From Hoeflea sp. (GTDB lineage Bacteria > Pseudomonadota > Alphaproteobacteria > Rhizobiales > Rhizobiaceae), in NCBI RefSeq assembly GCF_030682515.1, contig NZ_JAUXOD010000065.1:1-34619 (forward strand): 34,619 nt of DNA. Reading direction: 5' to 3'. Below the pieces are notes generated by a model that was not told the origin of the DNA, made no database searches, and saw only the letters and a list, made by a program, of their open reading frames with translations. How positions within the stretch are numbered: position 1 is the first letter of the stretch; each line of letters begins with the position of its first letter. Below, piece after piece: positions 463 to 31,711 of this stretch. The translations under genes and the position numbers were made by a program.

Positions 463-481
463 TGCATAGCCGCATACCCCC

Positions 482-4239: not shown

Positions 4240-4277
4240 GGTCGACCTCCAAAGGTCATTGTCCCCCCGAATTCTCC

Positions 4278-4313
4278 TGACTCAGATATAATTGTGCAAT
4301 GCAACAAAATCAA
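4278..4313 (-). promoter_or_regulatory. sigma-70-type promoter of the GNAT gene
   Basis: On the minus strand, TTGATT (4313-4308) and TATATC (4290-4285) are separated by exactly 17 nt, which predicts a start of transcription near 4278, about 40 nt before the GNAT start codon. The spacer contains the repeat-like word TTGTTGCATTGCACAA, which could be an operator. The match is by eye only. Confidence 0.5.
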
Positions 4314-4393
4314 GACACGTCCTATGACTAAAGTTAAAGAGCGTGTTCGGAGCGAGCCCGGACAGGGGAGGCCTCTCGCTTCGTGTCATGGTG

Positions 4394-4975
4394 TCAGACG
4401 CGACCGAGGAACTCAAGCACCCGTGATTTGAGCCGCGCGGTCGCATCTGAATCATAGGACGGCAGCGAGGGATCGGCGAACAGGTGCCGCTCTCCAGGGT
4501 AGAGAAACAGTTCGGCGGCCCGGACCGTCGCCGCGATCTCCCGGGCGGCGTCGATGTCGCCCTCGCCCGCAAAGAACGGGTCATTGTCCATCCCGTGGAT
4601 CTGCACAGGCACGCCCTCCGGCCATGGCCCGAAGGACCACTCGCCGCTGACCGGCAGGCAGGCACTGACGAGAAGCGCGCCGCGGGCGCCGGGCCGGGTC
4701 TGCGCCAGCTTCTGCGCCGGCATCACCCCGAACGAGAACCCGGCATAGACGAGCGCCCCGGGCAAGCCGTCGGCCGCGCGGTGGCCGCGCTCGCGCATGG
4801 CGTCAAACCCACTCTCCTCGATATGGGCGACACCCTCCTCCAGGGTCTGGAACGTCCGTCCGTCAAACAGATCCGGGGTATGAACGATGTGGCCGTTGGC
4901 CCGCAAGAAGTCTGCAAACGCGTGCACACCCCGGGTCAGCCCCTGCGCATGGTGGAACAACAGGACTTCGGCCAT
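4394..4975 (-). CDS. dienelactone hydrolase family alpha/beta hydrolase
   Basis: This 193-aa protein has the compact alpha/beta-hydrolase fold of the dienelactone hydrolase (DLH) family. The N-terminus EVLLFHHAQGLTRGVHAFAD is the family-typical first strand and helix. The nucleophile elbow reads AGFSFG with Ser81, whereas classical DLHs have Cys in this place. Asp130 or Asp132 (GMDNDPFF) and His164 (PGERHLF) complete a plausible triad. It probably hydrolyses an ester or lactone; the substrate is not known. The start has GGAGG 6 nt upstream. It lies 107 nt downstream of the sarcosine oxidase operon on the same strand and could be transcribed with it. Confidence 0.85.
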   Translation of the reverse strand: MAEVLLFHHAQGLTRGVHAFADFLRANGHIVHTPDLFDGRTFQTLEEGVAHIEESGFDAMRERGHRAADGLPGALVYAGFSFGVMPAQKLAQTRPGARGALLVSACLPVSGEWSFGPWPEGVPVQIHGMDNDPFFAGEGDIDAAREIAATVRAAELFLYPGERHLFADPSLPSYDSDATARLKSRVLEFLGRV

Positions 4976-5082
4976 GGCAAGCCTCCAGCGGCGTTGAACA
5001 GCGGCCGAAATCTACAGCATCACCCGCGCGCTGTCATGTCGATCTGGCGCCGCACATGGCTCCCGCTCGGATGCAGCGCGCC

Positions 5083-8000
5083 TCAGTCCCTGAGCCGGAT
5101 CGCCCGCGCCAGGCTTTCCGCCAGATCCCGCGCATAGGTCGAAAACGCCAGGATCTCGAAGCCGTCCGGCCCGAGCCGGGTGAGCTGCACCGGCACATGG
5201 CCGAACAGCGTCGGCTGGCTTGCCCCTGGCTTGCCCATCACGCCGTCAAGGTCGATGCCCGTCTGGGTGGCGAGGATGTCCTGCGCCTCGGGTCCGGTGA
5301 GCGAGAGCCGCACGCGCGCATCGGAGAGATCGCACAGGCTCAGATCATCTGCCGCACCCAGCCGCTGCATAAGCTCGGCAATGCCCTCGCCCGCGTGTCC
5401 AACCGCCAGCGCCTGGCCCGGCTGCACCGGGCGCAAGACGCCGTCGCCGGCCTGGGTGGCCTTGCGCACAGCCGCGTCCATGGTGACGGGGCCCGAGACC
5501 AGGCACACCGGCGCTGCGGGCAGCAAAGCCAGAAGCGCCCGCTCGGCCGCGCCGGTCGTAAGCCCGTCGAGCCAGGCCGGCGCGCGCGGCGCCGGCGCGA
5601 TCACCCGTGGATAATCCCGCGCGGGCCGCGTCTTGCTGGCATCGGCGCTGAGCAGCACCGGATCACCGACGATCGCCCGCGTCTCGACGCCCCTGAGCGG
5701 ATCCCACACGGTCAGGATCTCGCCATGGCGGCCGCGCCCGCCCTTGAGCATGGCGAGCGCGATGGTGGATCTGAGATGCGGCGACCAGCAGGCAGACGTC
5801 ACGTGGCCCTGGTCGTTGGCCATGGTGGGTGCTGCGTCAGGCTCGAGCAGGTGACCGCCGGCCAGGATCCGGTGCGCCGGATTGACCGGGCGCAGGCCCA
5901 CCAGCTGCTCGCGGCCCTCGCGTTGCAGGCCCTCGCGGCCGAGCATCGCACGGCCGATGAAATCGTCCTTCTTCGTGCTCACCATCTTGCCAAGCCCGAG
6001 ATCGCCCGGCGTCGTGCGCCCATCGATCTCGGCATGGGTGATGAAGCCCTTCTCGATGCGGAGCACATTCAAGGCCTCGAGCCCGTAGGGCACGATCCCG
6101 AAGGGCGCGCCTGCGTCCAGGATCGCGTCCGCCACCGCCTCGCCATGGCGCGCGGGCACGGCCAACTCGAAGGCCATCTCGCCCGAAAACGAGATCCGGA
6201 ACAGCCGCGCCGCGAGCCCCGAATGGAGCTTGACCTCGCGCGCGGCCATGAACGGCGTCGCCTCGTCGCCGAGATCGGCGTCGACGATACGCCCCAGCAC
6301 GTCGCGCGAGGCCGGACCGGCGACCGTGATCTGCGCCCACTGGTCGGTCACGGAAGCGAGCCGCACGTCGAGTTCCGGCCACAAGACTTGCGCGCAAAAC
6401 TCCATATGCGCCATGGCCTCGCCGGCGGCAGCCGTCGTCGTGGTGATCAGGTAATGGCTTTCGCCCAGCCGGCTCACCGTGCCGTCGTCCATCAGCAGCC
6501 CGTCCTCGCGCAGCATCAGCCCGTAGCGCGCCTTGCCGAGGCCAAGCGTCGACATCTTCGAGGTGTAGATCAGATCGAGGAACTGGCCCGCATCCTTGCC
6601 CGCAAGATCGATCTTGCCGAGCGTCGAGGCGTCGGAAATGCCCACGCCGGCGCGCACGGCCAGCGTCTCGCGGTCACAGGACTCCTTCCAGGAGGGTTCT
6701 CGGTCTCGCGGGAAATGCGAGGCCCGCATCCAGGCGCCGGCCTCGATGAACACCGCGCCATGCTTTTCGGCCCAATGGTGCAGCGGCGACCGCCGCACCG
6801 GACGATAGTGGTGGCCGCGGTGCTCGCCCGCCAGCGCGCCGATGCTGACCGGCGTGTAGAACGGCCGGAAGGTGGTGGTGCCCACCTGGTCCGGCGTCAC
6901 GCCCCGATTCTCGGCCAGGATGCCGATGGCGGTGACGTTGGAGAGCTTGCCCTGGTCGGTCGCCATGCCGGTGGTGGTGTAGCGCTTGGCAAGTTCCACA
7001 TGGCCGTAGCCCTCGCGCACCGCGAGGCCGAGATCGGTGACCGTCACGTCGTTCTGGAAATCGACGAAGGCCTTGCCGCGCGCCTCCGCGACATGCCACA
7101 GCGTTTGAAACCCTGTCGCGCCGCCGCAGGCCTCTCGCACCGACTGCGCATCGAGTTTTTTCGGCTTGAAGCCGAGATCGGTTGCGGCCTGCGCGCCGGC
7201 GTCCGCCCCGCACGCAAGGCAGCCTGCGAGATCGAGGATCCCCGCCGCACTGCCCGCCGCCACCAGCCCGTCGCGCGGCGCGGGCGGCAGGAACATGCCG
7301 CTCTCCTGATTCCACACCGGCCTGTCGCCGCGGTGGCAGGCGAGATGGACCACCGGGTTCCAGCCGCCGGCCATCGCCAGCGCATCGACCTTGATCTTTT
7401 CCCGCTTGCCGGTCGCCCGCTCGACCGCCTCGATGCCGGTGACCGTCTTGCCGCCCTTGGCATCCGCCACCACATGACCCAAAAGCACCCGCACGCCGTC
7501 CGACGCCGCCAGTTCCGCCGCGGGCACCTCGGCGCGCGCGTCGATGAGCGTCACGGCAAGCCCGCGCGCCAGAAGATCGCGCGCCGTCTCGTGGCCCGAC
7601 GGCCCGGTCGCAAACACCGCCACATGGTCGCCCGGCCTTATCGCCTGGGCGTTGGCGAGCCCGCGCATCGCGGACGCCATCATCACGCCGGGCCGGTCAT
7701 TGCCGCCGAACACCAGCGGCCGCTCCTCGGCGCCCGCCGCCAGCACGGCGCGTTTCGCCGCGATCCGCCAGATCCGCTGCGCCGGACCCGAGGCTTCGCC
7801 GTCGCGCCGCTCGACCGCGCCGAACACGCCGCTGTCGTAGGCGCCGAACACGGTCGTGGCCTTCAGCAGCCGCACATTGGGGTTGCCCGCCAGTTCCGCG
7901 ATGACGGAAGCCGCGAATCCCGGCCCGTCGGACTCGCCGATCTCGACCTTGTCGCGGATCAGCCGTCCGCCAAACTCAAGATTCTCGTCGCAGAGCACCA

Positions 8001-8580
8001 CCCGTACCCCGGCCCGCGCCGCCGCGCGCGCCGTCATCAGGCCCGCGGGTCCGGCGCCGATCACCAGCACGTCGCAATGGGCCCAGCGTTTCTCGTAGTC
8101 CTGGGGGTCGGGCGCATGGCTTGCCCGGCCGAGCCCCGCGGCCTTGCGGATCAACGGCTCGTAGAGCGTTTCCCAAAGTGCTGCCGGCCACATGAAGGTC
8201 TTGTAGTAGAACCCCGCGCCGAGAAACGGCGACAGCGCCGAATTGACCGCGCCGATATCGAGCCCGAGCGACGGCCAGCGGTTCTGGCTTTCCGCCACAA
8301 GCCCATCCCGAAGTCCAACCATCGAGGCGCGCAGATTGGGTTCGCGCGTCACGCCGTCGCCGATGGTCACCAGGGCATTGGGCTCCGACGCCCCGCCGCT
8401 CAGCAAGCCCCGCGGCCGGTGATACTTGAACGAGCGGCCCATCAGGCTCACGCCGTTGGCGAGCAGCGCCGAGGCCAGAGTGTCGCCGGCAAAGCCCTCG
8501 AGGGACCGCCCGTCGAAGCTGAAGCGAATGGTTCTGGAGCGGTCGATCAGCCCGCCATCGTCAAACCGGGAAAAGCTCAT
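5083..8580 (-). CDS. soxA: sarcosine oxidase alpha subunit fused to gamma subunit (SoxA-SoxG)
   Basis: Heterotetrameric sarcosine oxidase demethylates sarcosine to glycine, making H2O2 and 5,10-methylene-tetrahydrofolate. This 1165-aa protein starts with the ferredoxin-like domain (about residues 15-95) and the Rossmann dinucleotide-binding motif VLVIGAGPAGLM (171-182). The second nucleotide-binding half follows, including GCLACGADAG, and then the folate-binding GcvT-type domain (about 590-990). A normal SoxA ends near residue 990. Here about 165 more residues follow, and they resemble the gamma subunit: DLSDARVRLSLTGPEAQDIL, then VPVQLTRLGPDGFEIL and TYARDLAESLARAIRLRD. No separate soxG is nearby. 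Its ATG overlaps the soxD stop codon (ATGA). The alpha assignment is very sure; the gamma fusion is strong inference from length and motif resemblance. Confidence 0.95.
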   Translation of the reverse strand: MSFSRFDDGGLIDRSRTIRFSFDGRSLEGFAGDTLASALLANGVSLMGRSFKYHRPRGLLSGGASEPNALVTIGDGVTREPNLRASMVGLRDGLVAESQNRWPSLGLDIGAVNSALSPFLGAGFYYKTFMWPAALWETLYEPLIRKAAGLGRASHAPDPQDYEKRWAHCDVLVIGAGPAGLMTARAAARAGVRVVLCDENLEFGGRLIRDKVEIGESDGPGFAASVIAELAGNPNVRLLKATTVFGAYDSGVFGAVERRDGEASGPAQRIWRIAAKRAVLAAGAEERPLVFGGNDRPGVMMASAMRGLANAQAIRPGDHVAVFATGPSGHETARDLLARGLAVTLIDARAEVPAAELAASDGVRVLLGHVVADAKGGKTVTGIEAVERATGKREKIKVDALAMAGGWNPVVHLACHRGDRPVWNQESGMFLPPAPRDGLVAAGSAAGILDLAGCLACGADAGAQAATDLGFKPKKLDAQSVREACGGATGFQTLWHVAEARGKAFVDFQNDVTVTDLGLAVREGYGHVELAKRYTTTGMATDQGKLSNVTAIGILAENRGVTPDQVGTTTFRPFYTPVSIGALAGEHRGHHYRPVRRSPLHHWAEKHGAVFIEAGAWMRASHFPRDREPSWKESCDRETLAVRAGVGISDASTLGKIDLAGKDAGQFLDLIYTSKMSTLGLGKARYGLMLREDGLLMDDGTVSRLGESHYLITTTTAAAGEAMAHMEFCAQVLWPELDVRLASVTDQWAQITVAGPASRDVLGRIVDADLGDEATPFMAAREVKLHSGLAARLFRISFSGEMAFELAVPARHGEAVADAILDAGAPFGIVPYGLEALNVLRIEKGFITHAEIDGRTTPGDLGLGKMVSTKKDDFIGRAMLGREGLQREGREQLVGLRPVNPAHRILAGGHLLEPDAAPTMANDQGHVTSACWSPHLRSTIALAMLKGGRGRHGEILTVWDPLRGVETRAIVGDPVLLSADASKTRPARDYPRVIAPAPRAPAWLDGLTTGAAERALLALLPAAPVCLVSGPVTMDAAVRKATQAGDGVLRPVQPGQALAVGHAGEGIAELMQRLGAADDLSLCDLSDARVRLSLTGPEAQDILATQTGIDLDGVMGKPGASQPTLFGHVPVQLTRLGPDGFEILAFSTYARDLAESLARAIRLRD

Positions 8581-8974: not shown

Positions 8975-10225
8975 CTAATGCAGGTTTGCCTGGGCGCCGT
9001 GCCCGGTTTCATCGATCTGGGTGCCCCGCGAAAAGCGGTCGAGCCGGAAGGCTTTCGCGAGCTCATGGGTCTCGCCGGTGGCGAGCAAATGGGCAAAGCA
9101 CCAGCCGGAGGCGGGCGTCGCCTTGAAGCCGCCATAGCACCAGCCGCAATTCAGATAGAGGTTCTCGACCGGCGTCTTGTCGATGATCGGCGAGCCATCC
9201 ATCGACATGTCCATCACCCCGCCCCAGGATCGGAGCACTTTCACGCGGGAGACCGACGGCACCATCGCGCAGGCCGCCTCCATCACGCTTTCCACCGTCG
9301 CCAGATTGCCGCGCTGGGCGTAGGAATTGTACATGTCGAGGCTGCCGCCGAACACCAGCCCGCCCTTGTCGGACTGCGACATGTAGAACAGCGCCGCGCC
9401 AAACGTCACCACCTGGTCGATGAAGGGCTTCAATCCCTCCGACACGAAGGCCTGCAGCACCTGGCTTTCCACCGGCAGCCGCATGCCCGCCATCTCCGCC
9501 ACCCGGCCGGAATTGCCAGCCGCCGCGAGCCCCAACTTGTTGCAGCCGATAAAGCCGCGCGAGGTTTCGACGCCAACAACGCGGCCTCCCTCGCGGCGGA
9601 TGCCGGTGACCTCGCAGTTCTGGATCAGGTCCACCCCGCGGCTGTCCGCACCCCGCGCGTAACCCCAGGCGACGCCGTCATGGCGCGCGGTGCCGCCGCG
9701 CCGCTGCATCAGCCCGCCATGGACGGGAAACCGCGGATTGTCGAAATCAAGGAACGGCACAAGTTCGCGCACCTTGTCGCGGGTGAGCAACTCGGCATCC
9801 TCGCCCGCAAGCCGCATGGCGTTGCCGCGCCGCGCATAGGCATCGCGCTGCCCGTCGGAGTGAAAGAGATTGATCACGCCGCGCTGGGACATCATCGCGT
9901 TGAAGTTCAATTCCTGCTCGAGCCCTTCCCACAGTCTCAGCGAATGGGAATAGAACGGCTCGTTGCCCTCGAGCAGGTAATTGGCCCGCACGATCGTGGT
10001 GTTGCGCCCGACATTGCCCGAGCCCAGATAGCCCTTCTCCAGCACCGCCACATTGGTGATGCCGTGGTTCCTGGCCAGATAATAGGCCGCCGCCAGCCCG
10101 TGCCCGCCGCCGCCGACGATGATCACGTCATAATGGCCCTTCGGCTCCGGCTCCCGCCACGCCGGCTGCCAGCCTTTGTTGCCCGAAAGCCCCTGCCTCA
10201 AAATGGATAATGCCGAATATCTCAT
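8975..10225 (-). CDS. soxB: sarcosine oxidase beta subunit
   Basis: SoxB carries the catalytic flavin site that oxidises sarcosine. This 416-aa protein has the N-terminal FAD motif YDVIIVGGGGHGLAAAYYL (about residues 32-50) and the downstream GNVGRNTTIVRANYL stretch typical of SoxB. The ARHDGVAWGYA motif (about 180-190) holds the histidine to which FMN is thought to be covalently linked in this family. The start at 10225 (MRYSALSILRQG) gives the usual family length and N-terminus; a longer open frame upstream runs through a repeat and is not coding. It is the first gene of soxB-soxD-soxA. Confidence 0.96.
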   Translation of the reverse strand: MRYSALSILRQGLSGNKGWQPAWREPEPKGHYDVIIVGGGGHGLAAAYYLARNHGITNVAVLEKGYLGSGNVGRNTTIVRANYLLEGNEPFYSHSLRLWEGLEQELNFNAMMSQRGVINLFHSDGQRDAYARRGNAMRLAGEDAELLTRDKVRELVPFLDFDNPRFPVHGGLMQRRGGTARHDGVAWGYARGADSRGVDLIQNCEVTGIRREGGRVVGVETSRGFIGCNKLGLAAAGNSGRVAEMAGMRLPVESQVLQAFVSEGLKPFIDQVVTFGAALFYMSQSDKGGLVFGGSLDMYNSYAQRGNLATVESVMEAACAMVPSVSRVKVLRSWGGVMDMSMDGSPIIDKTPVENLYLNCGWCYGGFKATPASGWCFAHLLATGETHELAKAFRLDRFSRGTQIDETGHGAQANLH

Positions 10226-14540: not shown

Positions 14541-15227
14541 TCAAAGCCAGGTGTCGTAGTCCGAGACCAGGAGATGCCTGGGTTTCTCGTCCTCGATGAT
14601 CGTCGAGAACCGGCCGATCGGATCGCGGAAGACATTGTCGGTCAGATCGTCATTGACGGTCGACACCTCGCCGATCAGCACATCCCCGCCTTCCCCCCAG
14701 AACGCATGCCAGAGACCCGGCATCAGCGTCACGCTCTCGCCCGGATCGAGCTTGAGAAGCGCCCCCGCCTGCATCCGCCGCACCACTCCATCGGTGGCAA
14801 CCACGACTTCGGCGGACGGATCGATCGACCCGTCCTCGGCCGAAGTGAACAGTTCCAGCACCAGACTGCCGCCGCCGCGGTTGATGATGTCCTCGGCCTT
14901 GATGTTGTGCCGGTGCATCGGCGAGAGCTGCTTGTCGCGCGAGATCATGATCTTCTCGGCATAGAGCATGCCCCTGCCCGCAGCCAGATCGGCGGCCGAT
15001 CCGTTGCGCACGGTGAACAGGAACAGACCGAGATCGTCAAAACGCCCCTGGCCGTAATCGGTGATGTCCCAGCCCAGCCGGTTGGCGCGGATGTCGCCAG
15101 CGTCCGCGCCGGTGCGGGCGCGCATCTCCTCGACGCTCCAGTAGGCAAACGGCGGCAGGATGTATCCGAAGGAGCGGATGAACCGGTCGCTCTCCTCAAG
15201 GATCTCGTTAATCTGGCTGCGCTCCAT
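14541..15227 (-). CDS. D-lyxose isomerase
   Basis: This 228-aa protein matches the D-lyxose ketol-isomerase family, cupin-fold metalloenzymes that interconvert D-lyxose and D-xylulose. They typically also act on D-mannose/D-fructose. The metal-binding motif is visible as SPMHRHNIKAEDIINRGGG (two His and Glu) and the last ligand as GLWHAFWGEGG. The N-terminal MERSQINEILEESDRFIRSF is family-typical and the length is as expected (about 227 aa). It is transcribed divergently from a MarR regulator, with a palindrome between them close to its start codon. Confidence 0.88.
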   Translation of the reverse strand: MERSQINEILEESDRFIRSFGYILPPFAYWSVEEMRARTGADAGDIRANRLGWDITDYGQGRFDDLGLFLFTVRNGSAADLAAGRGMLYAEKIMISRDKQLSPMHRHNIKAEDIINRGGGSLVLELFTSAEDGSIDPSAEVVVATDGVVRRMQAGALLKLDPGESVTLMPGLWHAFWGEGGDVLIGEVSTVNDDLTDNVFRDPIGRFSTIIEDEKPRHLLVSDYDTWL

Positions 15228-15377: not shown

Positions 15378-15851
15378 ATGAGTTCGAGCCGCACACATGA
15401 GGGCGAGGGTCCGGACAACGCGCCGCTGGCGCTGGAGCAATTCCTGCCCTACCGGCTGGCCCGCGCCGCCGAGCAGGTGAGCCGCCAGTTCGCGCTCCTC
15501 TACCGCGACCGCCACGGCATGACCCGGCCGGAATGGCGCACGCTCGCCACCATCGGCCAGTTCAGGAAAATCACCGCCACCGCCATCGGCCAGCATTCCT
15601 CCATGCACAAGACCAAGGTCAGCCGCGCCATCAAGGCGCTGGAAGAGCGCGGCTGGATCACCCGCCAGCCCGACGCCACCGACCGCCGCATCGAACACCT
15701 CGAACTCACCCGCGACGGCCGCACCCACTACATGGAACTGGTCCAGCTCGCCCGCAGCTACGAAGCCCGGCTCAAGGCCGCGCTGGGCGCGGCGGCGACG
15801 GCCGAGCTCGAAGCGGGGATCGCGGCGGTCGAGACGCGGCTTGGGGAGTGA
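15378..15851 (+). CDS. MarR family transcriptional regulator
   Basis: This 157-aa winged-helix regulator is of the MarR type. EQFLPYRLARAAEQVSRQFA is the dimerisation helix. TRPEWRTLATIGQF and TATAIGQHSSMHKTKVSRAI form the helix-turn-helix, and the wing is seen as GWITRQPDATDRRIEHLELT with the conserved D-x-R-R. The ATG at 15378 is chosen because a GGAAGAGG ribosome-binding site precedes it and the product has the standard length; the open frame extends far upstream without coding character. The gene is divergent from D-lyxose isomerase and may regulate it, although MarR ligands are often phenolic compounds. Confidence 0.88.
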   Translation: MSSSRTHEGEGPDNAPLALEQFLPYRLARAAEQVSRQFALLYRDRHGMTRPEWRTLATIGQFRKITATAIGQHSSMHKTKVSRAIKALEERGWITRQPDATDRRIEHLELTRDGRTHYMELVQLARSYEARLKAALGAAATAELEAGIAAVETRLGE

Positions 15852-15989
15852 GCGGGGTTGAACAGGGCGATCGGCGGGCGTGCGTTGCGTCGGAAGCGAT
15901 GACCGGAATGGGGCCGGTTACAGACTATCTGCTTACGAGCGTAGATGGCGTAAAGCTGACGATCGACGGCACCGGCCGCGTTGGCGCTT

Positions 15990-17327
15990 TCAGCCATGAG
16001 TAGGCCAAGCGCGATGCTCATCGTCGATGACAAAGACGTGGCGATGCCACTTTCCGTCAGCCTGGTGTTCCCGCAGATGCGGATGATCAAGCGGAAGATC
16101 GGTGTGGTCATGCACCAACTCTTTGGATTCCTCTGGCGGCCAGACGAAATGAGCCGCAATTGCCCCTATTAGAGCAATGAACCCCAAAATGATCATGGCT
16201 ACGGCCAGTCCAAAAGCCTGCCCCGCCCAACCCGCTACGGGATAGGTCAAAAGCCAACAGGCATGGGAAAGCGCAAACTGTGCCGAGAAGACTGATGGTC
16301 TGTCTTCGGGGTGCGCCGAAATTCTGAGCAATCGTCCGGACGGTGTCAGGATTGCCGAGTATAGCGCCCCGCTTACCATCCAAGCGGCCAAAAACAGCCC
16401 CCATGAAAGCAGCCCATAGGCCACGGCGGTGAGGCCATGGACAATGGTGAGCGCGGTCAGGAGAAACGCGGCCACAAGCATCAGCGTTCTGTCATCAATC
16501 AAGTCTAGAAGCCGCGGAAGCAACAAAGCGGTCAACATCGAACCGCCGCCAAACGCCATGAGAGCGTAGGCCACTTCACTCTGGCCCGCCCCGTAACCCG
16601 CCTGGACAATCACAACTGTGTTGACGATCACAAAGGCACCTGCCGCTGCCGCGGTCAGGTTCAAGGCGAGCAACCCTCGCAACCGAGGAGTCGCCAGATA
16701 GATATGCGAGCCTCTGGTCAGCCGCTCAAGGAACGGCCTGGCTTTCTCCTGAGCCACCCTGGGCGGAATGCTGACGAGCGAGACAAGCGCTGCCGAACAA
16801 ACAAAGCCGACAACCGTGCCGCCAAACAGCCAATGATAACTCATGAAGGCCAGCAGGAGGCCCGCGAGGGCGGGGCTAATCAGGTTCTCCATGTCGTAGG
16901 CCAGCCGCGACAGTGACAGGGCCTTCGTGTATTCCTTTTCGTCCGCCAGAATATCGGGAATGATTGCCTGAAACGCGGGCGTAAACGTTGCTGACGCCGC
17001 CTGAAGCACAAAAATCAGGACGTAGATCTGCCAGATGGCATCGATGAACGGCAGGCACAAGGCAACCGCGGCCCGCACCAGATCAGCGCCGATCAACACT
17101 GCCTTGCGAGGCAGCCTTTCGGAAACAGCATTCGCCACTGGCGACAGGCCCACATAGGCAATCATCTTGATGGCGAATGCGGTTCCCAGAACCGCCCCCG
17201 CCTTGTCGCCCGCGAGATCAAACGCCAGCAGACCGAGCGCCACGGTCAGAAGACCGGTTCCCAGCAAGGCAATGACTTGCGCCAAAAACAGGCGCGCATA
17301 GACTGGATGTTTGAGAACGTCTATCAT
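15990..17327 (-). CDS. MFS transporter with histidine-rich C-terminal tail
   Basis: This 445-aa membrane protein of the major facilitator superfamily (MFS_3/EntS-like layout) has about 12 hydrophobic segments, from ARLFLAQVIALLGTGLLTVA near the N-terminus to about residue 400. The cytoplasmic C-terminal tail is unusual: VHDHTDLPLDHPHLREH continues to WHRHVFVIDDEHRAWPTHG, giving some nine histidines in about 40 residues. Such a tail suggests binding of a transition metal, and the transporter may export or import a metal or metal complex. The start at 17327 (MIDVLKHPVYARLF) gives normal length. It is the last gene of a lower-GC four-gene cluster, with an 80-nt gap carrying a hairpin before it. 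Confidence 0.85.
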   Translation of the reverse strand: MIDVLKHPVYARLFLAQVIALLGTGLLTVALGLLAFDLAGDKAGAVLGTAFAIKMIAYVGLSPVANAVSERLPRKAVLIGADLVRAAVALCLPFIDAIWQIYVLIFVLQAASATFTPAFQAIIPDILADEKEYTKALSLSRLAYDMENLISPALAGLLLAFMSYHWLFGGTVVGFVCSAALVSLVSIPPRVAQEKARPFLERLTRGSHIYLATPRLRGLLALNLTAAAAGAFVIVNTVVIVQAGYGAGQSEVAYALMAFGGGSMLTALLLPRLLDLIDDRTLMLVAAFLLTALTIVHGLTAVAYGLLSWGLFLAAWMVSGALYSAILTPSGRLLRISAHPEDRPSVFSAQFALSHACWLLTYPVAGWAGQAFGLAVAMIILGFIALIGAIAAHFVWPPEESKELVHDHTDLPLDHPHLREHQADGKWHRHVFVIDDEHRAWPTHG

Positions 17328-17369
17328 GGGTTGTTCTACCAATCTGGAACGGGCAGAGACATTCGATCT

Positions 17370-17400
17370 GGAGCGCCTCCAGGATGTCCAGAGGCGCTCC
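17370..17400. other. 10-bp intercistronic hairpin in the metal cluster
   Basis: GGAGCGCCTC (17370-17379) and GAGGCGCTCC (17391-17400) are perfect inverted copies with an 11-nt loop. The hairpin begins 7 nt after the stop codon of the anchor-protein gene and ends 43 nt before the MFS start codon. No T-run follows in the minus direction, so it may stabilise the upstream message or attenuate MFS expression rather than end transcription. Confidence 0.55.
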
Positions 17401-17407
17401 GGTTTGA

Positions 17408-18046
17408 TTACTTCGGCAGAACAACTTGGCTGTATGCGCCGCGGACAGACAAGGTCACTGTGACGTCCTGCTTGTCGCGATTGCGCCAGAACCAACCGTG
17501 ATTGCCTGTAAAGGCGGCCTTGAGAACACCGTCATGGCCTGGCACTGCCCGTCCCTTTTCATAGCTGATCTCATTGCCTGACCCATCGCCATGAAGATCG
17601 TAGTTGAGTTTACCACCCTCGGCATTCCACTGAAATTCCGCTTCAGCGCCTTCCTGCATCACCAGCTTCACTTCAATGCCCTCGCCAGGTGTGAGCGTGT
17701 AAGTGACTGTATCGGTCCAGGCCTCGCTTGCCGATTGGGCATGAGCAGAACCAACAATCAGGCCAAACAAGCTGTCCAACAGATTGCTTGATTTGTCATC
17801 AGTCTCACTGTTTTGCAGCTCCAATTGGCGGTCCGCTTCCGCCTCGGCATGCAACTGTTGTTTAATCTCCCCCATTTCGGTGAGGTTGAGTATCTTGCCC
17901 ACGCCGGTCGGGTCGATTGCGTATTCTGAGGGCAGTACGATCGTCACCAAAATAACGATCGCCGAGATGATCGCGATGATCGTTGACTTGATGAGCTGGC
18001 GGGTCGAGGGCAACTCGGCACGGGTCGGGATGTCGGAATTGTACAT
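17408..18046 (-). CDS. membrane-anchored periplasmic protein of the metal cluster
   Basis: This 212-aa protein has a conserved-looking N-terminus (MYNSDIPTRAELPSTRQL), one transmembrane helix (about residues 21-39), and a probable coiled stretch (about 55-80). It then has a soluble beta-rich domain (about 105-212) containing WNAEGGKLNYDLHGDGSGNE and GNHGWFWRNRD. A second hydrophobic stretch ends in AHAQ at about 101-104, resembling a signal-peptidase site inside the protein. Proteins like this are often annotated only as 'transmembrane anchor protein'. Position between a HupE-like protein and a His-tailed MFS transporter suggests a periplasmic partner in metal handling. Ten nt separate it from the HupE-like gene. 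Confidence 0.75.
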   Translation of the reverse strand: MYNSDIPTRAELPSTRQLIKSTIIAIISAIVILVTIVLPSEYAIDPTGVGKILNLTEMGEIKQQLHAEAEADRQLELQNSETDDKSSNLLDSLFGLIVGSAHAQSASEAWTDTVTYTLTPGEGIEVKLVMQEGAEAEFQWNAEGGKLNYDLHGDGSGNEISYEKGRAVPGHDGVLKAAFTGNHGWFWRNRDKQDVTVTLSVRGAYSQVVLPK

Positions 18047-18056
18047 GGGGTTTCCT

Positions 18057-18800
18057 TCAGGAATTGAGAGTTGTGAAATAGCCAGTGAGATGCATGCCGG
18101 TCAGGACAAATCCTGCGGTCATCATCACCACATTTGCGGTGTAGGCATGACGCCAGAAGCTGTCGGTTCGCCGCCAGTAGCTCATGGCGATCAGGATGGC
18201 GGCCAGGGCCAGAAGCTGGCCGACCTCAACGCCGATGTTGAAGGCGATCAGATTGGTGAGCAGTCCATCGGGCGCAATCTCGTATTCCTGAACCTTCGTT
18301 GCCAGACCAAATCCGTGGAACAGACCGAAGATCAGTGTCGCAGCCTTGGTATTCGGCTGAAACCCGAACCAGCGCTGATATGCCCCCATATTGTCGAGCG
18401 CCTTGTAGACGACTGACAGGCCGATGATGGCGTCGATGATGTAGGAGCTCATTGTGATGTTGTAATAGATACCGAGGATCATGGTGGTTGAGTGCCCGAT
18501 GGCAAACAAGGTCACATAAATCGCGATGTGCTTCATCCGGTACAGGAAGAAGACCACACCTGCCAAAAACAGCAGATGGTCATAACCGGTGATCATGTGC
18601 TTGGCTCCCAGATACATGAACGGGATGAAGTGGATACCGGAGATTTCCTGGATGTAGCCCTTGTCGCCTTCGGTGACAGCGTGTGCCCATACGGCTTGGT
18701 CCATGAACGGAAGACAAGCCAGCGCGAGCAAGATGATGAGAGTAAGCCGCCGCAGCGCCAGACGCTGTTGCGGCACCCCCTCACTGAGTGAGTTCTGCAT
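18057..18800 (-). CDS. HupE/UreJ family membrane protein
   Basis: This 247-aa protein has a signal peptide predicted to be cut after AVWA (about residue 39), so the mature protein would start with His40. This resembles HupE, which is a nickel permease in hydrogenase clusters. Several membrane helices follow, with the family motifs MITGYDHLLFLAGVVFF (His75), AIGHSTT, FGLFHGFGLAT and FNIGVEVGQ, where His and Asp/Glu residues in helices can bind metal. It belongs to the HupE/UreJ_2-type group usually found outside hydrogenase and urease operons; no such genes are in this window. The ATG at 18800 has AGGA upstream and is preferred to an in-frame TTG at 18839. Confidence 0.85.
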   Translation of the reverse strand: MQNSLSEGVPQQRLALRRLTLIILLALACLPFMDQAVWAHAVTEGDKGYIQEISGIHFIPFMYLGAKHMITGYDHLLFLAGVVFFLYRMKHIAIYVTLFAIGHSTTMILGIYYNITMSSYIIDAIIGLSVVYKALDNMGAYQRWFGFQPNTKAATLIFGLFHGFGLATKVQEYEIAPDGLLTNLIAFNIGVEVGQLLALAAILIAMSYWRRTDSFWRHAYTANVVMMTAGFVLTGMHLTGYFTTLNS

Positions 18801-18851
18801 GTGGAATCCTATTTCCTTGATGGATTTTACCGGCTGCAATGGCAGCCGAAA

Positions 18852-19241
18852 TCAGATCAAAGAAACGGGCTTTGGTGGGCGATCCAGCCGAAATGAGCCG
18901 CCAAGCTCAATGGTTTCCGGGATGGAAGCGAAATGAATGCGGTTCTTGTCGCGGTACGCCAGATAAAGCTGACCAGCAAGATGCGGTGTCTCGTGCGAGT
19001 GATCAGCAGGGTTGTGACCATGGCTATGGCCCGCGCGCTGCTCCTCCAGCTCCCCATCGTCATGGCTGTGGCCGTGGTCGTCCGCGGATGCCAATTCGGC
19101 CTGTCTCATCTGTTCTGCTGCCTCAGCATTCACTGCCGAGTGCGACATTGAAATGCCCACGGCAGAAACGAACAATCCAAGCGTCAATGTGATCGCAAGG
19201 AAAATCCTGAAGGCTCTGCTGGGGGCGGAATTCATCATCAT
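18852..19241 (-). CDS. histidine-rich secreted or membrane-anchored protein
   Basis: This 129-aa protein has an N-terminal hydrophobic segment (about residues 11-32), acting as a signal peptide or anchor. It then has an acidic/histidine-rich stretch with DDHGHSHDDGELEEQ, AGHSHGHNPADHSHETPH and about nine histidines in 35 residues. The C-terminal part (AGQLYLAYRDKNRIHFASIP) looks like a small folded beta segment. Such stretches bind Zn, Ni, Co or Cu, so a periplasmic metal buffer or chaperone is likely. It is the first gene of the leftward cluster. Three in-frame ATGs in a row leave the exact start uncertain by two residues. Confidence 0.78.
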   Translation of the reverse strand: MMMNSAPSRAFRIFLAITLTLGLFVSAVGISMSHSAVNAEAAEQMRQAELASADDHGHSHDDGELEEQRAGHSHGHNPADHSHETPHLAGQLYLAYRDKNRIHFASIPETIELGGSFRLDRPPKPVSLI

Positions 19242-19739
19242 GAACTGCTTTCATACAATATCGCGCCGAAGCAATGAAGCTTTTTCCGCTCCTCCAGGGC
19301 CCGTAACTCCAAAACAGAAAATATGAAGCTTGATCAGACATGACAAATCCGAGGGTCTACGTGATGTCAGTAGGCTGAGCAGCGAAGGTCTGGATGGTCC
19401 CCATTGCTGCCGTTGGTGAAGCTGCAACGAGAATCCGCTTCCCGCCCTCCGCCGATTTTCGAACAACCGGAGCGAACAGCTGCTTTCGGGATGCCTGAAT
19501 TCGATCGCAAACGGCCGACATGGGGGCGCAAACCTGCCCACCCATCCAGGGACCTGCCGACCGCCGCCTCCTTGCGCCACCCTCTGCCTCAGGCAACAAT
19601 CCCGCCCGTCAACGCCCGCCATTCCTGTCAAAACTCAATGAACAGTTCTGGCAAATTGACCAAATCGGGAAAATTATGGATAGCTAAAATAAAGGCAACG
19701 CCTGGACGTTGTTTGCAGCCGAATCGGCGGGAGCCTCGA
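19242..19739. other. divergent intergenic region between the metal cluster and the 111-aa gene
   Basis: These 498 nt must hold the promoter of the leftward metal cluster and that of the rightward 111-aa gene. On the cluster side an AT-rich word TATTGTATGA (19260-19251, minus strand) could be a -10 region but no convincing -35 was found. Open frames through the middle (19404-19740 plus strand; 19251-19631 minus strand) lack coding character. No metal-sensor regulator gene and no mobile-element end was recognised. Confidence 0.5.
19656..19684 (+). promoter_or_regulatory. candidate promoter of the 111-aa gene
   Basis: TTGACC (19656-19661) is followed after a 17-nt spacer by GATAGC (19679-19684); a stronger AT-rich word TAAAAT lies just after it at 19685-19690. 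This puts the start of transcription roughly 50 nt before the start codon at 19740. The -35 box is good and the -10 weak. Confidence 0.35.
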
Positions 19740-20075
19740 ATGGGGTGTTCGGAAAACCTGGACGATATGCTTCTTCCTTTTCCGGCGGACGAAATGAACC
19801 GCGGCGTGCGGGAACTGTTTCAGACAATATTTCTGGAACGGCACGTCAAGAGATCATGGACCGTCTGCGAAATCACGATCGACGCTGGAACAAGGCCGGG
19901 CGCCAGGGTGCTTTGCGAGACATACAGGTCCGACGAAGTGCGTGAGGGAAACTGGGTCGAGTTCCCTTCCGTCGACGCTGCCGTGGTCGAGGCCGGGCGG
20001 TTGGCGCACAACAAGATGCGCAACGGCTTTCACTACAGCGCCGCGCATCAATCGGATGCGCAAAGGTCGCTGTAG
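19740..20075 (+). CDS. hypothetical protein, 111 aa
   Basis: This soluble 111-aa protein is not recognised. The start at 19740 (MGCSENLDDMLLPF) is supported by GGGAG about 5 nt before the ATG; the frame stays open upstream but without coding character. The product looks like a real small domain: an N-terminal helix (RGVRELFQTIFLERHV), then strand-rich segments (SWTVCEITIDAGTRPGARVL, NWVEFPSVDAAVVEAGRLA) and a short C-terminal tail. No membrane segment is present. A large palindrome follows it. It may belong with the neighbouring accessory genes, but nothing links them directly. Confidence 0.6.
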   Translation: MGCSENLDDMLLPFPADEMNRGVRELFQTIFLERHVKRSWTVCEITIDAGTRPGARVLCETYRSDEVREGNWVEFPSVDAAVVEAGRLAHNKMRNGFHYSAAHQSDAQRSL

Positions 20076-20274: not shown

Positions 20275-20412
20275 TCACCGCTTTTCGCCCCACGGCCGGT
20301 GATGCTCACCCTCCGCGTCGAGCCGCGCAAAGCCGTGAGCGCCGAAGACGTCGCGGTGCGCCTTGATCAGCTTTGCCCTTCCCCGCGCGCCGGTGGATGT
20401 CGGCTGCTCCAT
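20275..20412 (-). pseudogene. remnant of the 3' end of gnd, now a 45-codon open frame
   Basis: The minus strand encodes 45 residues whose last 37 match the C-terminus of the intact 6-phosphogluconate dehydrogenase at 27634-29052 at 28 positions, including an unbroken FGAHGFARLDAEGEHH. Its stop codon lies where the real gnd stop lies, within a few residues. The rest of gnd (over 430 residues) is missing. An ATG has been gained at 20412, two nt after the stop codon of the YdeI-family gene, so a small coupled peptide could be made. It is read mainly as a relic of a second gnd copy. A GGGGC/GCCCC hairpin (20261-20273) follows at its stop codon. Confidence 0.75.
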
Positions 20413-20414
20413 GA

Positions 20415-21038
20415 CTACCGCTCCATCGCCCCCTTCCCCGCAAGGATCTTGTCCCGGTACCTGGCGATGCGGTTGATGCGGGTCTGCGCGGTCTTGGCTG
20501 AGCTCAAGGCGATGACGTAGCTCCTCTGGCGGCCCGGGGTGAGTGCGTGGAAGGCCTCAGTGAGCTCGGGGTCGGCGTCGAGCGCCTCGACCAGTTCGTC
20601 GGGCAGCTCGAAACCGCCCTCCTCTTTCTCAGGCTTGAGGCCCTGATCGGCATAGGCCATCGCCTCTTCGAGATAGGCGCGGATGATGTCCTCCATCTCC
20701 GCCACCTGGGCGTTGCGGGTGAAGCGGATCATGTCGGGATGTTGCGTGTTTTCGCCCTGGCGTTCGAGCACGCCATCAGGGTCCTGCATCAGCGCCGCGT
20801 TGAAGAAGCTCAGGCGGAAATCTGAGCGCAGGGCGCCGATGATGGCGATGTTGCGCCCGGCATGCCTGTAGCAGGGATGCGCCCATTTCACCGTTTCCTC
20901 AAGCTTCAGGTCGCGGCAGATGCGGCGCAGCGCGGCAAGCCCCGCGGTCCAGTGTTTCACCGAGCAGTCGGGCGTGTCGAAGCGGGCGCACCGCCCGCAG
21001 CCCCTGGTGAAGAAGTCTTCGATGTCGGTGATCATCAT
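20415..21038 (-). CDS. YdeI/OmpD-associated family protein (DUF1801 + OmdA-like)
   Basis: This 207-aa soluble protein has the two-part layout of the YdeI family. An N-terminal DUF1801-type domain (about residues 25-110; LEETVKWAHPCYRHAGRNIAI, then the FRLSFFNAALM strand) is followed by a C-terminal OmdA-like segment (ELPDELVEALDADPELTEAF, then LTPGRQRSYVIALSSAKTAQTR with R-x-x-R-I at the end). In enterobacteria YdeI is linked to stress and peptide resistance, but the biochemical role of the family is unknown. Four cysteines occur near the N-terminus (GCGRCARFDTPDC). The gene is followed at once by the gnd remnant. Confidence 0.85.
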   Translation of the reverse strand: MMITDIEDFFTRGCGRCARFDTPDCSVKHWTAGLAALRRICRDLKLEETVKWAHPCYRHAGRNIAIIGALRSDFRLSFFNAALMQDPDGVLERQGENTQHPDMIRFTRNAQVAEMEDIIRAYLEEAMAYADQGLKPEKEEGGFELPDELVEALDADPELTEAFHALTPGRQRSYVIALSSAKTAQTRINRIARYRDKILAGKGAMER

Positions 21039-21278
21039 GCGCGCTGGCCCGTGCTGGGGTCGCCCGCCTCAAGCGGCCGTCAGGACACTCGGAGCGGAGT
21101 GTCGCAACCTTGCCACGGGATGAGGCCGGCCGACAAGGCAAGCCGGCGCCGCGGCCACGAGCCGGGCACGCGCCGGCGAACGGCGCCCGCGCCACCCTTC
21201 CGGTTTGGCGCGATCGTTCAAGACAGGGCGGCCTGTGCCGCTTACCTCTTGGCCGACGCGCAACAGAAGGAGCTTGTC

Positions 21279-29195: not shown

Positions 29196-29354
29196 TCAGT
29201 CCTGTCCGGGCTTGTCGTCGCCGTCGTCGAGCACGCGCCAGGCAGCGCCGTCGAGATCCTCATATTGCCCGCTTTTCATCGACCACAGGAACGCGCCCAG
29301 ACCCAGGGCGCCGAGAAACAGCGCGATCGGAATGAGGAAGATCAGATTGTTCAT
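29196..29354 (-). CDS. ccoS: cbb3-type cytochrome oxidase assembly protein CcoS
   Basis: This 52-aa membrane protein begins MNNLIFLIPIALFLGALGLG, with one transmembrane helix, followed by the family pattern WSMKSGQYEDLDGAAWRVL and a short acidic tail. CcoS is needed for heme and copper insertion into cbb3 oxidase. The start codon overlaps the ccoI stop (ATGA), and the length fits the family (about 50-60 aa). It is the last gene of ccoGHIS. Confidence 0.93.
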   Translation of the reverse strand: MNNLIFLIPIALFLGALGLGAFLWSMKSGQYEDLDGAAWRVLDDGDDKPGQD

Positions 29355-31711
29355 GCCTGCGCCCCGATGCCCGGACGGGCAGCGGCGGGCGCGGCCCGCT
29401 CCGGCGCGGTCTTGGCGAACTGTTCGACCCGGGTCTTGCGCCTGAGCCTCAGGGAATTGAGCACGACGATGACCGACGACGACGACATCGCCAGCGCGGC
29501 GATCAATGGCGTGGCGTAGCCCATCACCGCGATCGGCACGGCGATGACATTGTAGCCGACAGCCAGCGCGAAATTCTGCCGGATCAGGCTGCCCGCCTTG
29601 CGCGACACCTCGATCGCCATCGGCACGGCCTCGAGCGAATCGTGCAGGAACACGAAGTCCGCCGCCATCCGCCCGACATCGGCCGCGCTCGCCGGCGCCA
29701 TCGAGACATGGGCGGCCGACAGCGCCGGCGCGTCATTAAGTCCGTCGCCGACCATCAGCGGCTTGTGGCCCTCCGTCGCCAGCGCCTTGATGCGGTCGAC
29801 CTTGCCGCGCGGCCTGACGCCAGCGACATAGGCGCTCACGCCAAGTTCGCCGGCCAGCGCCTTGACCGGCCCCTCGCGGTCGCCCGACAGGATTTCGGCG
29901 TCGATGCCGAGCGCCGACAGCCGCGCCACCGCCTGGACAGCGCCGCGCCGCATCTGGTCCGAGAACAGGAAGATATCGAGGAACTTGCCGTTCTTCGACA
30001 GGATCACCTGGCTTGCGTCGGCGGCGCTCTCGATCCCCTCGTCGCGCTCATGGAGCGCAAAGACGGCGCGGCCGAGCCGGTAGACATCGCCCTCGGGCGA
30101 AATCGCCTCGACCCCTTCGCCGGGCGTTTCGGTGATGTCGAACTCCTGCGCCGCATCGCCGCCCGAATCGAAATCGGCCAGCGCCTGGCTCAACGGATGG
30201 CGCGAGGCCCGCGCGATCCGCGCCGCGATGGCCAGATGATCCGGCGCCACGGCTGAGGAATTGATCAGCCGCGGCTTGCCCCGCGTCAGCGTGCCGGTCT
30301 TGTCGAACACCACATGGTCGGCCTGCGCCAGCCGCTCCATGGCCGAGCCGTCCTTGACCATGATGCCGTTCTCGAACAGCCGTCCCGCCGCAATCACCTG
30401 CACCACCGGCACCGCGAGCCCCAGCGCGCAGGGACAGGTGATGATCAGCACCGCAACCGAGGTCAGCATGGCCATGCGCCAGTCGCCCGACACCATCATC
30501 CAGCCGATGAAGGTGCCAAGCGCAAGGATGTGCACCGCCGGCGCGTAGATCGCCGAGGTCCGGTCGGCGATCCGCCTGTAGCCGGCCCGACCGCTTTCCG
30601 CCGCCTCCATCATCGCCACCATTTCAGCCAGGAACGAGTCCTTGGCCTTGCGGGTGACTTCCAGCACCAGCGCACCGGTCAGGTTGAGCGTGCCCGCGGG
30701 CGTGAGCGACCCGGCCTCGACCAGTTGCGGCGCGCTCTCGCCGTTGACCACGGCGAAATCCATGTCGGAGCGGCCCGAGACGATCCGGCCGTCGACCGGA
30801 ATCCGGTCGCCCGGCGCGATCGCCAGCCGCATGCCGGGTTCGATCTCGTCCAGTGCCAGATATTCGCGGGCGCCGTCCTCGCGGATCACCATCGCGCCCC
30901 TGGGCGACAGCCGCACCAGGTTGCGCACCGCCGAGCGGGCTTTCTCGCGCATCATGTGATCGAGCGTCCGGCCCGCGAGCAGGAAGAACAGCAGCGTCAC
31001 CGACGCGTCGAAATAGGCGTGTGGGCCATGGGTGATGGTCTCATGCAGCGAGATCGCATAGGCGAGCCCGACGCCGAGCGAGATCGGCACGTCCATGTTG
31101 GCGTGGCCATGCCGGAGCGCGCTCCAGGCCGAAACGAAGAACACCCGGCCGGAATAGATCAGTGCCGGGGCTGCAATCAGCGCCGAGATCCAGTGAAACA
31201 GGTCGCGCGTCGCCGCTTCCGCCCCCGACCAGACCGACACCGACAGGAGCATCACGTTCATCGAGGCGAACCCCGCCACCGCGAGCGCCTTGAGCAGTTC
31301 GCGCAAAGCCGGGTCTGCGGCCTCGTCGGCGCCGCCGGGCAGATGCGCGGGATAGCCCAATGACTTGAATTTCTGGCCGAGCGCGGTCAGCACCGCCTCG
31401 GGATGATCGCTCGCCTCGCCGCTCGCGTCGGCTTTGGCACTGCCGATGCTGTCGCTGTCGCGGAACACCACCGAGACACGGCGGGTGGAGAGATTGACGC
31501 GGGCGTGATCGACGCCCCCGACGCTCGGCAGCTCCTTCTCCAGGAGCGCGATGCAGGCGCCGCAATGGACTCCCGGAACGATCAGGTCGACCTGGCGCAG
31601 GCCATCGCCCAGCTGCCGGCTCGACAGCCACATTTCCTCGGCCGACGGCCCTTCCGATTTCAGCGCTTCGAGCTCCGCAGCGCTTTCCGTACCCGCCGCG
31701 CAACAGCTCAC
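29351..31711 (-). CDS. ccoI: copper-translocating P-type ATPase of cbb3 oxidase assembly
   Basis: This 786-aa P1B-type ATPase delivers copper for CcoN of cbb3 oxidase. It has an N-terminal SCCAAG, a heavy-metal-associated domain with GVHCGACIALLEKEL, eight or so membrane helices, the ion-site CPC in VLIITCPCALGLAVPV, and the phosphorylation motif FDKTGTLTRGKPR. The hinge motif GDGLNDAPALSAA follows. The start is a GTG at 31711 whose GTGA overlaps the ccoH stop codon; this gives the usual VSCC beginning and normal length. It is coupled to ccoS by a 4-nt overlap. Confidence 0.95.
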   Translation of the reverse strand: MSCCAAGTESAAELEALKSEGPSAEEMWLSSRQLGDGLRQVDLIVPGVHCGACIALLEKELPSVGGVDHARVNLSTRRVSVVFRDSDSIGSAKADASGEASDHPEAVLTALGQKFKSLGYPAHLPGGADEAADPALRELLKALAVAGFASMNVMLLSVSVWSGAEAATRDLFHWISALIAAPALIYSGRVFFVSAWSALRHGHANMDVPISLGVGLAYAISLHETITHGPHAYFDASVTLLFFLLAGRTLDHMMREKARSAVRNLVRLSPRGAMVIREDGAREYLALDEIEPGMRLAIAPGDRIPVDGRIVSGRSDMDFAVVNGESAPQLVEAGSLTPAGTLNLTGALVLEVTRKAKDSFLAEMVAMMEAAESGRAGYRRIADRTSAIYAPAVHILALGTFIGWMMVSGDWRMAMLTSVAVLIITCPCALGLAVPVVQVIAAGRLFENGIMVKDGSAMERLAQADHVVFDKTGTLTRGKPRLINSSAVAPDHLAIAARIARASRHPLSQALADFDSGGDAAQEFDITETPGEGVEAISPEGDVYRLGRAVFALHERDEGIESAADASQVILSKNGKFLDIFLFSDQMRRGAVQAVARLSALGIDAEILSGDREGPVKALAGELGVSAYVAGVRPRGKVDRIKALATEGHKPLMVGDGLNDAPALSAAHVSMAPASAADVGRMAADFVFLHDSLEAVPMAIEVSRKAGSLIRQNFALAVGYNVIAVPIAVMGYATPLIAALAMSSSSVIVVLNSLRLRRKTRVEQFAKTAPERAAPAAARPGIGAQA

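Follow-up and report, generated by a model that had tools for sequence, protein, structure and literature searches.

The window (the whole stretch of 34,619 nt that was analysed) carried four leftward open reading frames, here called A to D, separated by gaps of 51, 10 and 80 nt (Table 1). GC content was 0.545-0.584 in the four 1-kb steps covering 16001-20000 and 0.608-0.743 in the remaining 30 steps. Reading frames and GC steps agreed with the original prediction, which had described four leftward genes with gaps of about 50, 10 and 80 nt in less GC-rich DNA. In the same-genus genome the cassette was found at another site with all four frames intact (identity 80% for A, 96% for B, 91% for C and 88% for D). 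At L101, a site without the cassette, the sequences matching window positions 15594-15834 and 20412-21044 were only 68 bp apart. The block was probably acquired horizontally. A strong hairpin in the 80-nt C-D gap (folding of the region -34.6 kcal/mol, z -5.0) had been overlooked previously, and hairpins were also present in the C-D gaps of L002, L003 and L004.

Table 1. Positions of the genes and other features of the block in the window.
Feature	Position	Strand	Description
Gene A	18852-19241	-	129 aa, 11 His; small exported His-rich protein
Gene B	18057-18800	-	247 aa from ATG; HupE/UreJ-type permease, HupE_UreJ_2 (PF13795)
Gene C	17408-18046	-	212 aa; single-helix membrane-anchored periplasmic protein, predicted C-terminal GOLD fold (residues ~112-209)
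RNA hairpin, C-D gap	17363-17407	-	Arms 17363-17379 and 17391-17407; without U-run
Gene D	15990-17327	-	445 aa; NcrA/NirA/NreB-type MFS transporter, His-rich C-terminal tail
Whole cassette	15964-19411		Common to a same-genus genome: 85% identity, 3453 columns, flanks unrelated

Related loci were found by C only. The best 80 of 448 relatives were compared, a sample biased to near kin, together with a second sample of 38 loci that overlapped the 80 (L114, L117, L123 and L150 look like L038, L039, L059 and L037, their contigs being of equal length).

Protein A possessed a hydrophobic segment at its N terminus, the His-rich stretches HGHSHDD, GHSHGH and DHSHE in this order, and a C-terminal RPPK, as expected of the exported His-rich protein that had been proposed. 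It had no match at E 0.1 in the Pfam scan. The NCBIfam profile CopL_fam matched it weakly, reaching 15 bits where the cut-off is 40, which does not place it in the CopL family, and the same profile had no match at E 0.1 in eight other A proteins. CzcI is a small exported metal-binding protein. A resembled the CopL/CzcI-type metal-binding proteins in being small, exported, His-rich and first in the operon, but differed from them in its low CopL_fam score. Among the best 80 of 448 relatives, 75 loci could be examined with our own strict motif (DHxH and a C-terminal PP(R/K)), two loci without B and three cut at a contig end being left out, and 65 of these 75 had an A-type ORF upstream of B. By tblastn, A was recovered in 47 of the best 80.

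The HupE/UreJ-type identity of B was confirmed by PF13795 (E 9.9e-55, 184.9 bits, cut-off 24.5); that scan gave no PF04955 match at E 0.1. Seven residues (H40, H68, D74, H75, H103, D123 and H162) had a conservation of 1.00 in an alignment of 75 rows, and many polar residues were conserved across the predicted helices. H40, the likely mature start after Ala-Val-Trp-Ala, was kept in all 72 aligned sequences reaching that position, which fits the predicted mature form starting with His. B is like the HupE/UreJ nickel permeases in its profile match, though PF13795 differs from the classical PF04955, which is named for UreJ in the part of PMC8472584 covered. It also differs from them in its surroundings, as it was tied to tolerance genes and not to urease or hydrogenase in most sampled loci, and no urease or hydrogenase genes were found in the window. 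E. coli carrying hupE or ureJ accumulated Ni2+ (PMC5557971, in part), and Rhizobium HupE is a diffusion facilitator for nickel uptake according to a reference title in PMC10142276.

C is named transmembrane anchor protein in plasmid records. It was predicted to consist of one N-terminal helix (residues 15-42) followed by a soluble part, in line with the anchored periplasmic protein of the original prediction. The predicted structure (pLDDT 85.6) had a GOLD-like fold, with 4-16% identity to the GOLD structures listed as matches, and W140, N148, D150, H152 and H183 were invariant across 62 sequences. Sequence searches did not recover this relationship: C had no Pfam match at E 0.1 and no match at E 1 in the PDB, and no family-level match to GOLD sequence families was found, the best hit of 66 members being a stray one (E 0.0038) to an unrelated family. 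GOLD domains are protein-binding modules of eukaryotic traffic, and the p24/TMED proteins have a C-terminal membrane helix and type I topology. Unlike GOLD-domain proteins such as p24/TMED, SEC14L and ACBD3, C is bacterial and periplasmic, shares only the low identity given above, lacks a family-level sequence match and is anchored by its N terminus, where its sole long predicted hydrophobic helix is located. C was found in 399 of 72,556 plasmid records; of 385 genomes sampled from the host's class, 29 carried it.

D matched the Pfam profile MFS_1 (E 1.8e-33) and was similar over its full length to ncrA of pECL_A (L093; AMRFinder class NICKEL), with 54.9% identity over 443 aligned positions. 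Its identity to the MFS proteins of L082 and L095 was 60.8% and 55.2%. TIGR00900 scored D at 276.2 bits and the annotated ncrA at 298.1, both under the curated cut-off of 319.6. Six His residues of the tail (H406, H408, H417, H428, H430 and H438) were kept in 44/44 or 45/45 of the sequences reaching them, and the predicted MFS transporter with a His-rich tail was therefore upheld. Achromobacter NreB also has a His-rich tail. D resembled the nickel exporter NreB as an MFS protein with such a tail, probably of the TIGR00900 type, but differed in that its gene follows A-B-C, from which a hairpin separates it, and in the absence of an NreA-type repressor from the host genome. NreB of Streptomyces mirabilis belongs to Pfam07690/TIGR00900, and nreB alone increased the nickel tolerance of E. 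coli (PMC9195940, in part).

The set recurred across genomes, a check that the original prediction had proposed. Of the best 80 of 448 relatives, 78 had B immediately upstream of C; together with the A-type ORFs upstream of B, this links A, B and C. Near C, the same 80 loci included a CsoR/RcnR-like repressor in 52 cases, a D-type MFS gene in 53, RcnA in 8, a DmeF-like gene in 9 and a CzcA-type RND gene in 5; 28 lacked a repressor and 27 an MFS gene, a contig end explaining some of these. The 38 loci of the second sample included 18 repressors, 15 MFS genes, three RcnA and three DmeF-like genes. Among the best 80, 49 of the 52 loci with a repressor had it a short distance upstream in divergent orientation, and all 52 repressors resembled the NcrB queries (median identity 65%) more than DmeR. 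Given the frequency of the D-type MFS gene, the association of all four genes is not due to chance. The four genes thus belong together, as originally suggested, and capture by A followed by transport through B and export by D would be a putative route. The divergent layout was the usual one and the single-operon order A-B-C-D was rare: only 3 of the best 80 loci and 2 of the 38 had a same-strand MFS gene no more than 1.5 kb downstream.

Some plasmid loci carried A-B-C with ncrA-ncrB-rcnA or, in another case, with ncrABCY, and in others A-B-C was found beside RcnA/NcrB/MFS genes, beside an RND system or beside mreA. The plasmids with A-B-C beside nickel resistance genes were from several bacterial groups. 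In other loci A-B-C or B-C stood alone, without a recognised exporter.

nirABCD is a nickel resistance determinant. Compared with the ncrABC(Y)/nirABCD determinants, D is of the NcrA type, and enterobacterial plasmids carry A-B-C in the same region as the ncr genes. The host differs in lacking ncrB in its genome and an ncrC/rcnA-like gene in the window, and thus does not have an ncrABC operon. In the parts of PMC3046157 and PMC8545094 covered, the ncr operon is described without A-B-C. The nickel-induced region of Sphingobium sp. ba1 has an NreB-like MFS protein, a small His-rich protein and a HupE/UreJ-like permease, as in the block, and its HupE/UreJ gene is the most nickel-induced gene (PMC5557971, in part). 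That cluster differs in its extra RND system and NreA repressor, and a C-type protein is not described in the parts of PMC5557971 covered. The layout of a Sphingomonas plasmid locus (L095) resembled the Sphingobium cluster, with C also present.

No match to PF02583 (CsoR/RcnR, including ncrB) was found in the host genome, which is 98.86% complete; among 14 named genomes searched as controls, 6 gave a match. Nickel induction of the block is therefore not supported here. An ncrC/rcnA-type permease was also absent from the window, and the single NicO match of the genome was on another contig (C143), beside another type of gene.

We suggest that the four genes form a cassette, acquired horizontally, for tolerance of nickel and probably also cobalt, a reading from sequence and gene context to which we give a probability of roughly 0.7. 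The neighbour genes bear out the metal-handling set originally proposed, and they indicate that the metal, which had been left open, is probably nickel, with cobalt likely as well. By homology and context, D would be an NcrA/NreB-type proton-driven MFS exporter that carries cytoplasmic Ni2+ into the periplasm and collects the ion on the cytoplasmic side with its His-rich tail, and A-B-C a conserved accessory module travelling with nickel-sensing repressors and Ni/Co exporters. A may buffer Ni2+ in the periplasm, while C would scaffold A and B, presenting a protein-binding domain of the GOLD type on the periplasmic side of the inner membrane. B may be a second inner-membrane route for Ni2+, more likely outward, in the role of RcnA/NcrC in ncr loci; for B alone, we put outward transport slightly short of even odds. 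The usual CsoR/RcnR repressor was either lost from the block in this lineage or never part of it, so that expression would be free of nickel control or under another regulator. In E. coli K-12, ncrABC suffices for nickel resistance (PMC8545094, in part), so A-B-C is not required there.

Alternatively, A-B-C could be a periplasmic complex that binds or senses nickel without net transport, B holding the metal, A and C binding it, and D or its equivalents exporting it. The exported, His-rich nature of A and the invariant H152, H183 and D150 of C are compatible with this, and sequestration has been proposed for the Sphingobium HupE-like protein (PMC5557971, in part). However, the conserved polar residues across the predicted helices of B are those expected of a transporter, and the loci with A-B-C or B-C but no recognised exporter also argue against it. 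We consider this explanation unlikely.

A nickel or cobalt uptake module, in which B imports, A and C capture or guide the metal and D is a mere safety valve, is quite unlikely. HupE/UreJ proteins are known as nickel uptake permeases (PMC5557971, PMC10142276, both in part). The original prediction had reasoned that, with no urease, hydrogenase or B12 gene nearby, the block was not simply for cofactor supply. This is true for the window, but urease (alpha) and CobN genes are present elsewhere in the host genome, and in a metagenome-assembled locus (L024) urease genes are followed directly by A-B-C on the same contig; these observations leave room for a supply role in places. On the other hand, urease genes were near the block in only 1 of the best 80 of 448 loci, and an importer would be a misfit beside a nickel-relieved repressor (52 of these 80) and with the nickel induction in Sphingobium. 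Nickel enzymes were searched for in 25 of the 28 other genomes of the class with C (G256, G392 and G480 were dropped as fragmentary or mixed) and in 20 of the 356 without it. Urease was counted only at E <1e-40, weaker matches being taken as other amidohydrolases. Loci were called solitary when A-B-C or B-C had no D, CsoR, RcnA or DmeF match (tblastn with few queries, ~8 kb), and 64 of their 144 neighbour ORFs were scanned. Among the 12 genomes with a solitary block, two of them (G302 and G441) less than 90% complete, three had a strong urease hit and none had Ni-SOD or NiFe hydrogenase, leaving nine without any of the three, while urease was found in 4 of the 20 background genomes. No cobalamin or NiCo riboswitch reached the Rfam threshold in the window or in 14 solitary loci.

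A main substrate other than nickel (cobalt alone, zinc, cadmium or copper) is improbable. DmeF-like Co/Ni transporters and CzcA-type RND genes do occur near the block (9 and 5 of the best 80 of 448 loci), and the weak CopL_fam match of A stems from copper systems. However, the neighbours of tested function, of the ncr/nre type, are nickel systems, the regulators were nearest NcrB in every one of the 52 loci having one among the best 80, and loss of a 9-kb ncrABC region lowered only the nickel MIC among the metals tested (PMC8545094, in part). Finally, the missing CsoR/RcnR gene, the low GC content and flanking DNA that bears no relation to that around the relative's copy would suit an acquired passenger that is not effectively used, but this is very improbable, since the four intact and similar frames at another site in the same-genus genome point to selection on the block.

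We tentatively propose, at less than even odds, that A-B-C may be an unrecognised inner-membrane complex for Ni/Co handling, in which an anchored bacterial GOLD domain holds a HupE-type permease and a His-rich exported protein is the third partner. Such a complex might work without D in some lineages and might have been taken up into tolerance systems of the ncr, nre, cnr-like and dme types and, in one case, into a urease operon. If this is true, GOLD domains would have a role in metal transport in the periplasm of bacteria. A-B-C is common and mobile. Two of its three proteins nevertheless belong to no named family and bear at most a generic product name, and a literature search, with most subscription papers outside its reach, found no paper on A-B-C as a module or on C as a GOLD protein. 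Nickel resistance of the NcrA/NreB kind is described mainly by its exporters, and evidence of what A-B-C contributes to the efflux would fill in the rest of the system. It would also give a function to a bacterial GOLD-fold domain and decide whether HupE-type permeases can act in tolerance in addition to uptake.

The four-gene cassette of the window (genes A to D) is best read as serving tolerance of nickel, and probably of cobalt, with a probability of roughly two in three. The ORF positions agreed with the original prediction of four leftward genes at 15990-19241, spaced as claimed (51 nt between A and B, 10 nt between B and C, 80 nt between C and D) and lying in less GC-rich DNA (0.545-0.584, against 0.608-0.743 in the rest of the window). 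C, predicted to be a periplasmic protein anchored in the membrane by a single N-terminal helix, was not matched in Pfam and NCBIfam profile searches. The ATPase and Fix genes, the latter recognised by eye, are a cbb3-oxidase assembly cluster with no relation to the block.

Features of the cassette and of the rest of the window
Feature	Position	Strand	Description
Gene A	18852-19241	leftward	small protein; N-terminal hydrophobic segment, 11 His, C-terminal RPPK
Gene B	18057-18800	leftward	HupE_UreJ_2 match (PF13795, E 9.9e-55)
Gene C	17408-18046	leftward	"transmembrane anchor protein" in plasmid annotations
Gene D	15990-17327	leftward	MFS transporter by profile match; His-rich tail
Hairpin between C and D	17363-17407		strong RNA hairpin possible in transcript, z -5.0
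Sarcosine oxidase	5083-8580		alpha-type protein
D-lyxose isomerase	14541-15227		family protein
ATPase and Fix genes	29351-33848		heavy-metal P-type ATPase, then FixH- and FixG-like genes

The cassette is a discrete block that was probably acquired. Window positions 15964-19411 aligned at 85% identity with L002, a Hoeflea sp. MAG, and with the same-genus genome G139, probably one and the same assembly, and the alignment ended on both sides. Protein identities to L002 were 80% (A), 96% (B), 91% (C) and 88% (D). Counterparts of the window's flanks stood on a separate contig in G139 (L107), and L101, from a further genome of this genus, has both flanks with only 68 bp between them. Sampling of the family detected C in 13 of 151 genomes, and sampling of the class in 29 of 385, with its own genome counted both times; among 72,556 plasmid records, 399 carried it. 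In L121, a tRNA gene (9466-9537) lay some 0.1 kb away from the block's B end and is a possible integration site. Two loci (L003 and L004) had an inverted repeat, CCGTCAAGG...CCCTTGACGG, immediately upstream of A, which was absent from the window.

A, B and C are a module. Conserved co-occurrence had been proposed as a check, and it was borne out for these genes in a first set of loci (the best 80 of 448, with C alone as query): in 78/80, B immediately preceded C and shared its strand. A tblastn search recovered A from 47 of the 80. Since the sequence of A varies, a motif search was added for ORFs upstream of B that contain DHxH and five or more His and carry a PP(R/K)-like motif at the C-terminus; it detected such an ORF in 65 of 75 examinable loci. 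A second set, which numbered 38 loci and shared some with the first, contained B in 34 and A in 20. A second HupE-type gene was present no more than a few kb from the first in L047, L069 and L134 (38%, 39% and 58% identity to the window's B, respectively). Plasmid nickel resistance (ncr) regions in L083 (10831-11202) and L093 (12378-12749) encoded a second small His-rich exported protein, distinct from A, with a C-terminal RPPS.

Judged by gene content, the neighbours of A-B-C point to nickel and cobalt tolerance. The D part of the check also held, with a D-type MFS in 53/80 loci, and a CsoR/RcnR-like repressor was near the block in 52/80; the repressor was upstream, divergent and close by in 49 loci and the MFS likewise in 43. 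Other nearby exporters were RcnA (8 loci), a DmeF-like gene (9) and a CzcA-type RND gene (5). All 52 repressors were nearer to the reference repressor NcrB than to DmeR (median identity 65%). The second set had the repressor in 18/38 loci, 17 of the 18 nearer NcrB, and the MFS in 15/38. Neighbours in the plasmid loci agreed with this pattern. A-B-C was followed by nirA/ncrA, ncrB and rcnA in Klebsiella pKPN-edaa, and occurred together with chromate genes and ncrABCY in Enterobacter pECL_A. It was divergent from MFS, RcnA and NcrB-like genes in Ancylobacter pLGM and from mreA in a Pseudomonas plasmid, and accompanied RND genes in an Acinetobacter plasmid. In Sinorhizobium pSinB, dmeF and a repressor were next to C, and B was not annotated there.

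D shared 54.9% identity with ncrA of pECL_A (443 positions) and 60.8% with the Ancylobacter MFS. Both D (276.2 bits) and annotated ncrA (298.1) scored under the curated TIGR00900 cut-off (319.6 bits). Six His of the D tail were invariant among sequences extending that far. One study reports that ncrABC is enough to make E. coli K-12 resistant to nickel, and that the effects of mutating ncrA or ncrC singly are modest (PMC8545094); another describes higher nickel tolerance in E. coli given an nreB gene (PMC9195940).

A 75-row alignment of B showed that His40, where the mature protein probably begins, is conserved wherever sequences extended that far, as are H68, D74, H75, H103, D123 and H162; no clear match was found for its predicted model (pLDDT 76.5). 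In Sphingobium sp. ba1 at 10 mM nickel, the top up-regulated gene was a HupE/UreJ-domain gene, whose cluster also includes a homologue of NreB, a small ORF rich in His, RND genes and, divergently oriented, an NreA repressor; the authors found permease induction seemingly counterintuitive and proposed sequestration (PMC5557971). The Sphingomonas plasmid locus L095 has a layout of the same kind and carries B and C (69.7% and 36.4% identity to the window's). Outward transport by B, taken alone, is a tentative proposal, slightly short of an even chance.

Alternatively, the block might serve nickel supply in general. L024 (a 6.9 kb MAG contig, 423-6654) carries urease genes with A-B-C directly behind them in the same orientation, UreC being identified by tblastn and UreA, B, E, F and G by recognition; it is the sole such case, with no urease genes near the block in the remaining 79 of 80 loci. 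Genes for urease alpha and CobN are present in the genome from which the window comes. Certain blocks were solitary, surrounded by unrelated genes. We compared class genomes with a solitary block (12), with a tolerance partner at the block (13) and without C (20). Strong urease matches (E below 1e-40) occurred in 3, 7 and 4 of these, respectively, Ni-SOD in 0, 0 and 2, and the hydrogenase family (E 0.001) in 0, 4 and 2. At these thresholds, 9/12 solitary-block genomes had a match to none of the three enzymes. Such gene counts, from small samples, speak against a general supply role.

The cassette of the window has an uncommon layout. Its same-strand order, with D after C, recurred in L002-L004; such an MFS was found in only 3/80 and 2/38 loci. 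A search for CsoR/RcnR genes in the window's genome found none. The genome's sole NicO gene lies elsewhere, adjoining a gene recognised by eye as DUF1007-like, and its second HupE_UreJ_2 gene encodes a longer protein on a different contig. Hairpins were also predicted in the C/D gap of L002, L003 and L004 (z -3.4, -3.0 and -2.8), with sequences unrelated between the two pairs, that of the window being unrelated to those of L003 and L004. Because no U-run followed the hairpin in the folded stretch of the window or of L002-L004, we read it as possible control of the level of D rather than a proven terminator.

What is new is A-B-C seen as one module, together with its anchor protein C, for which a C-terminal GOLD fold is predicted.
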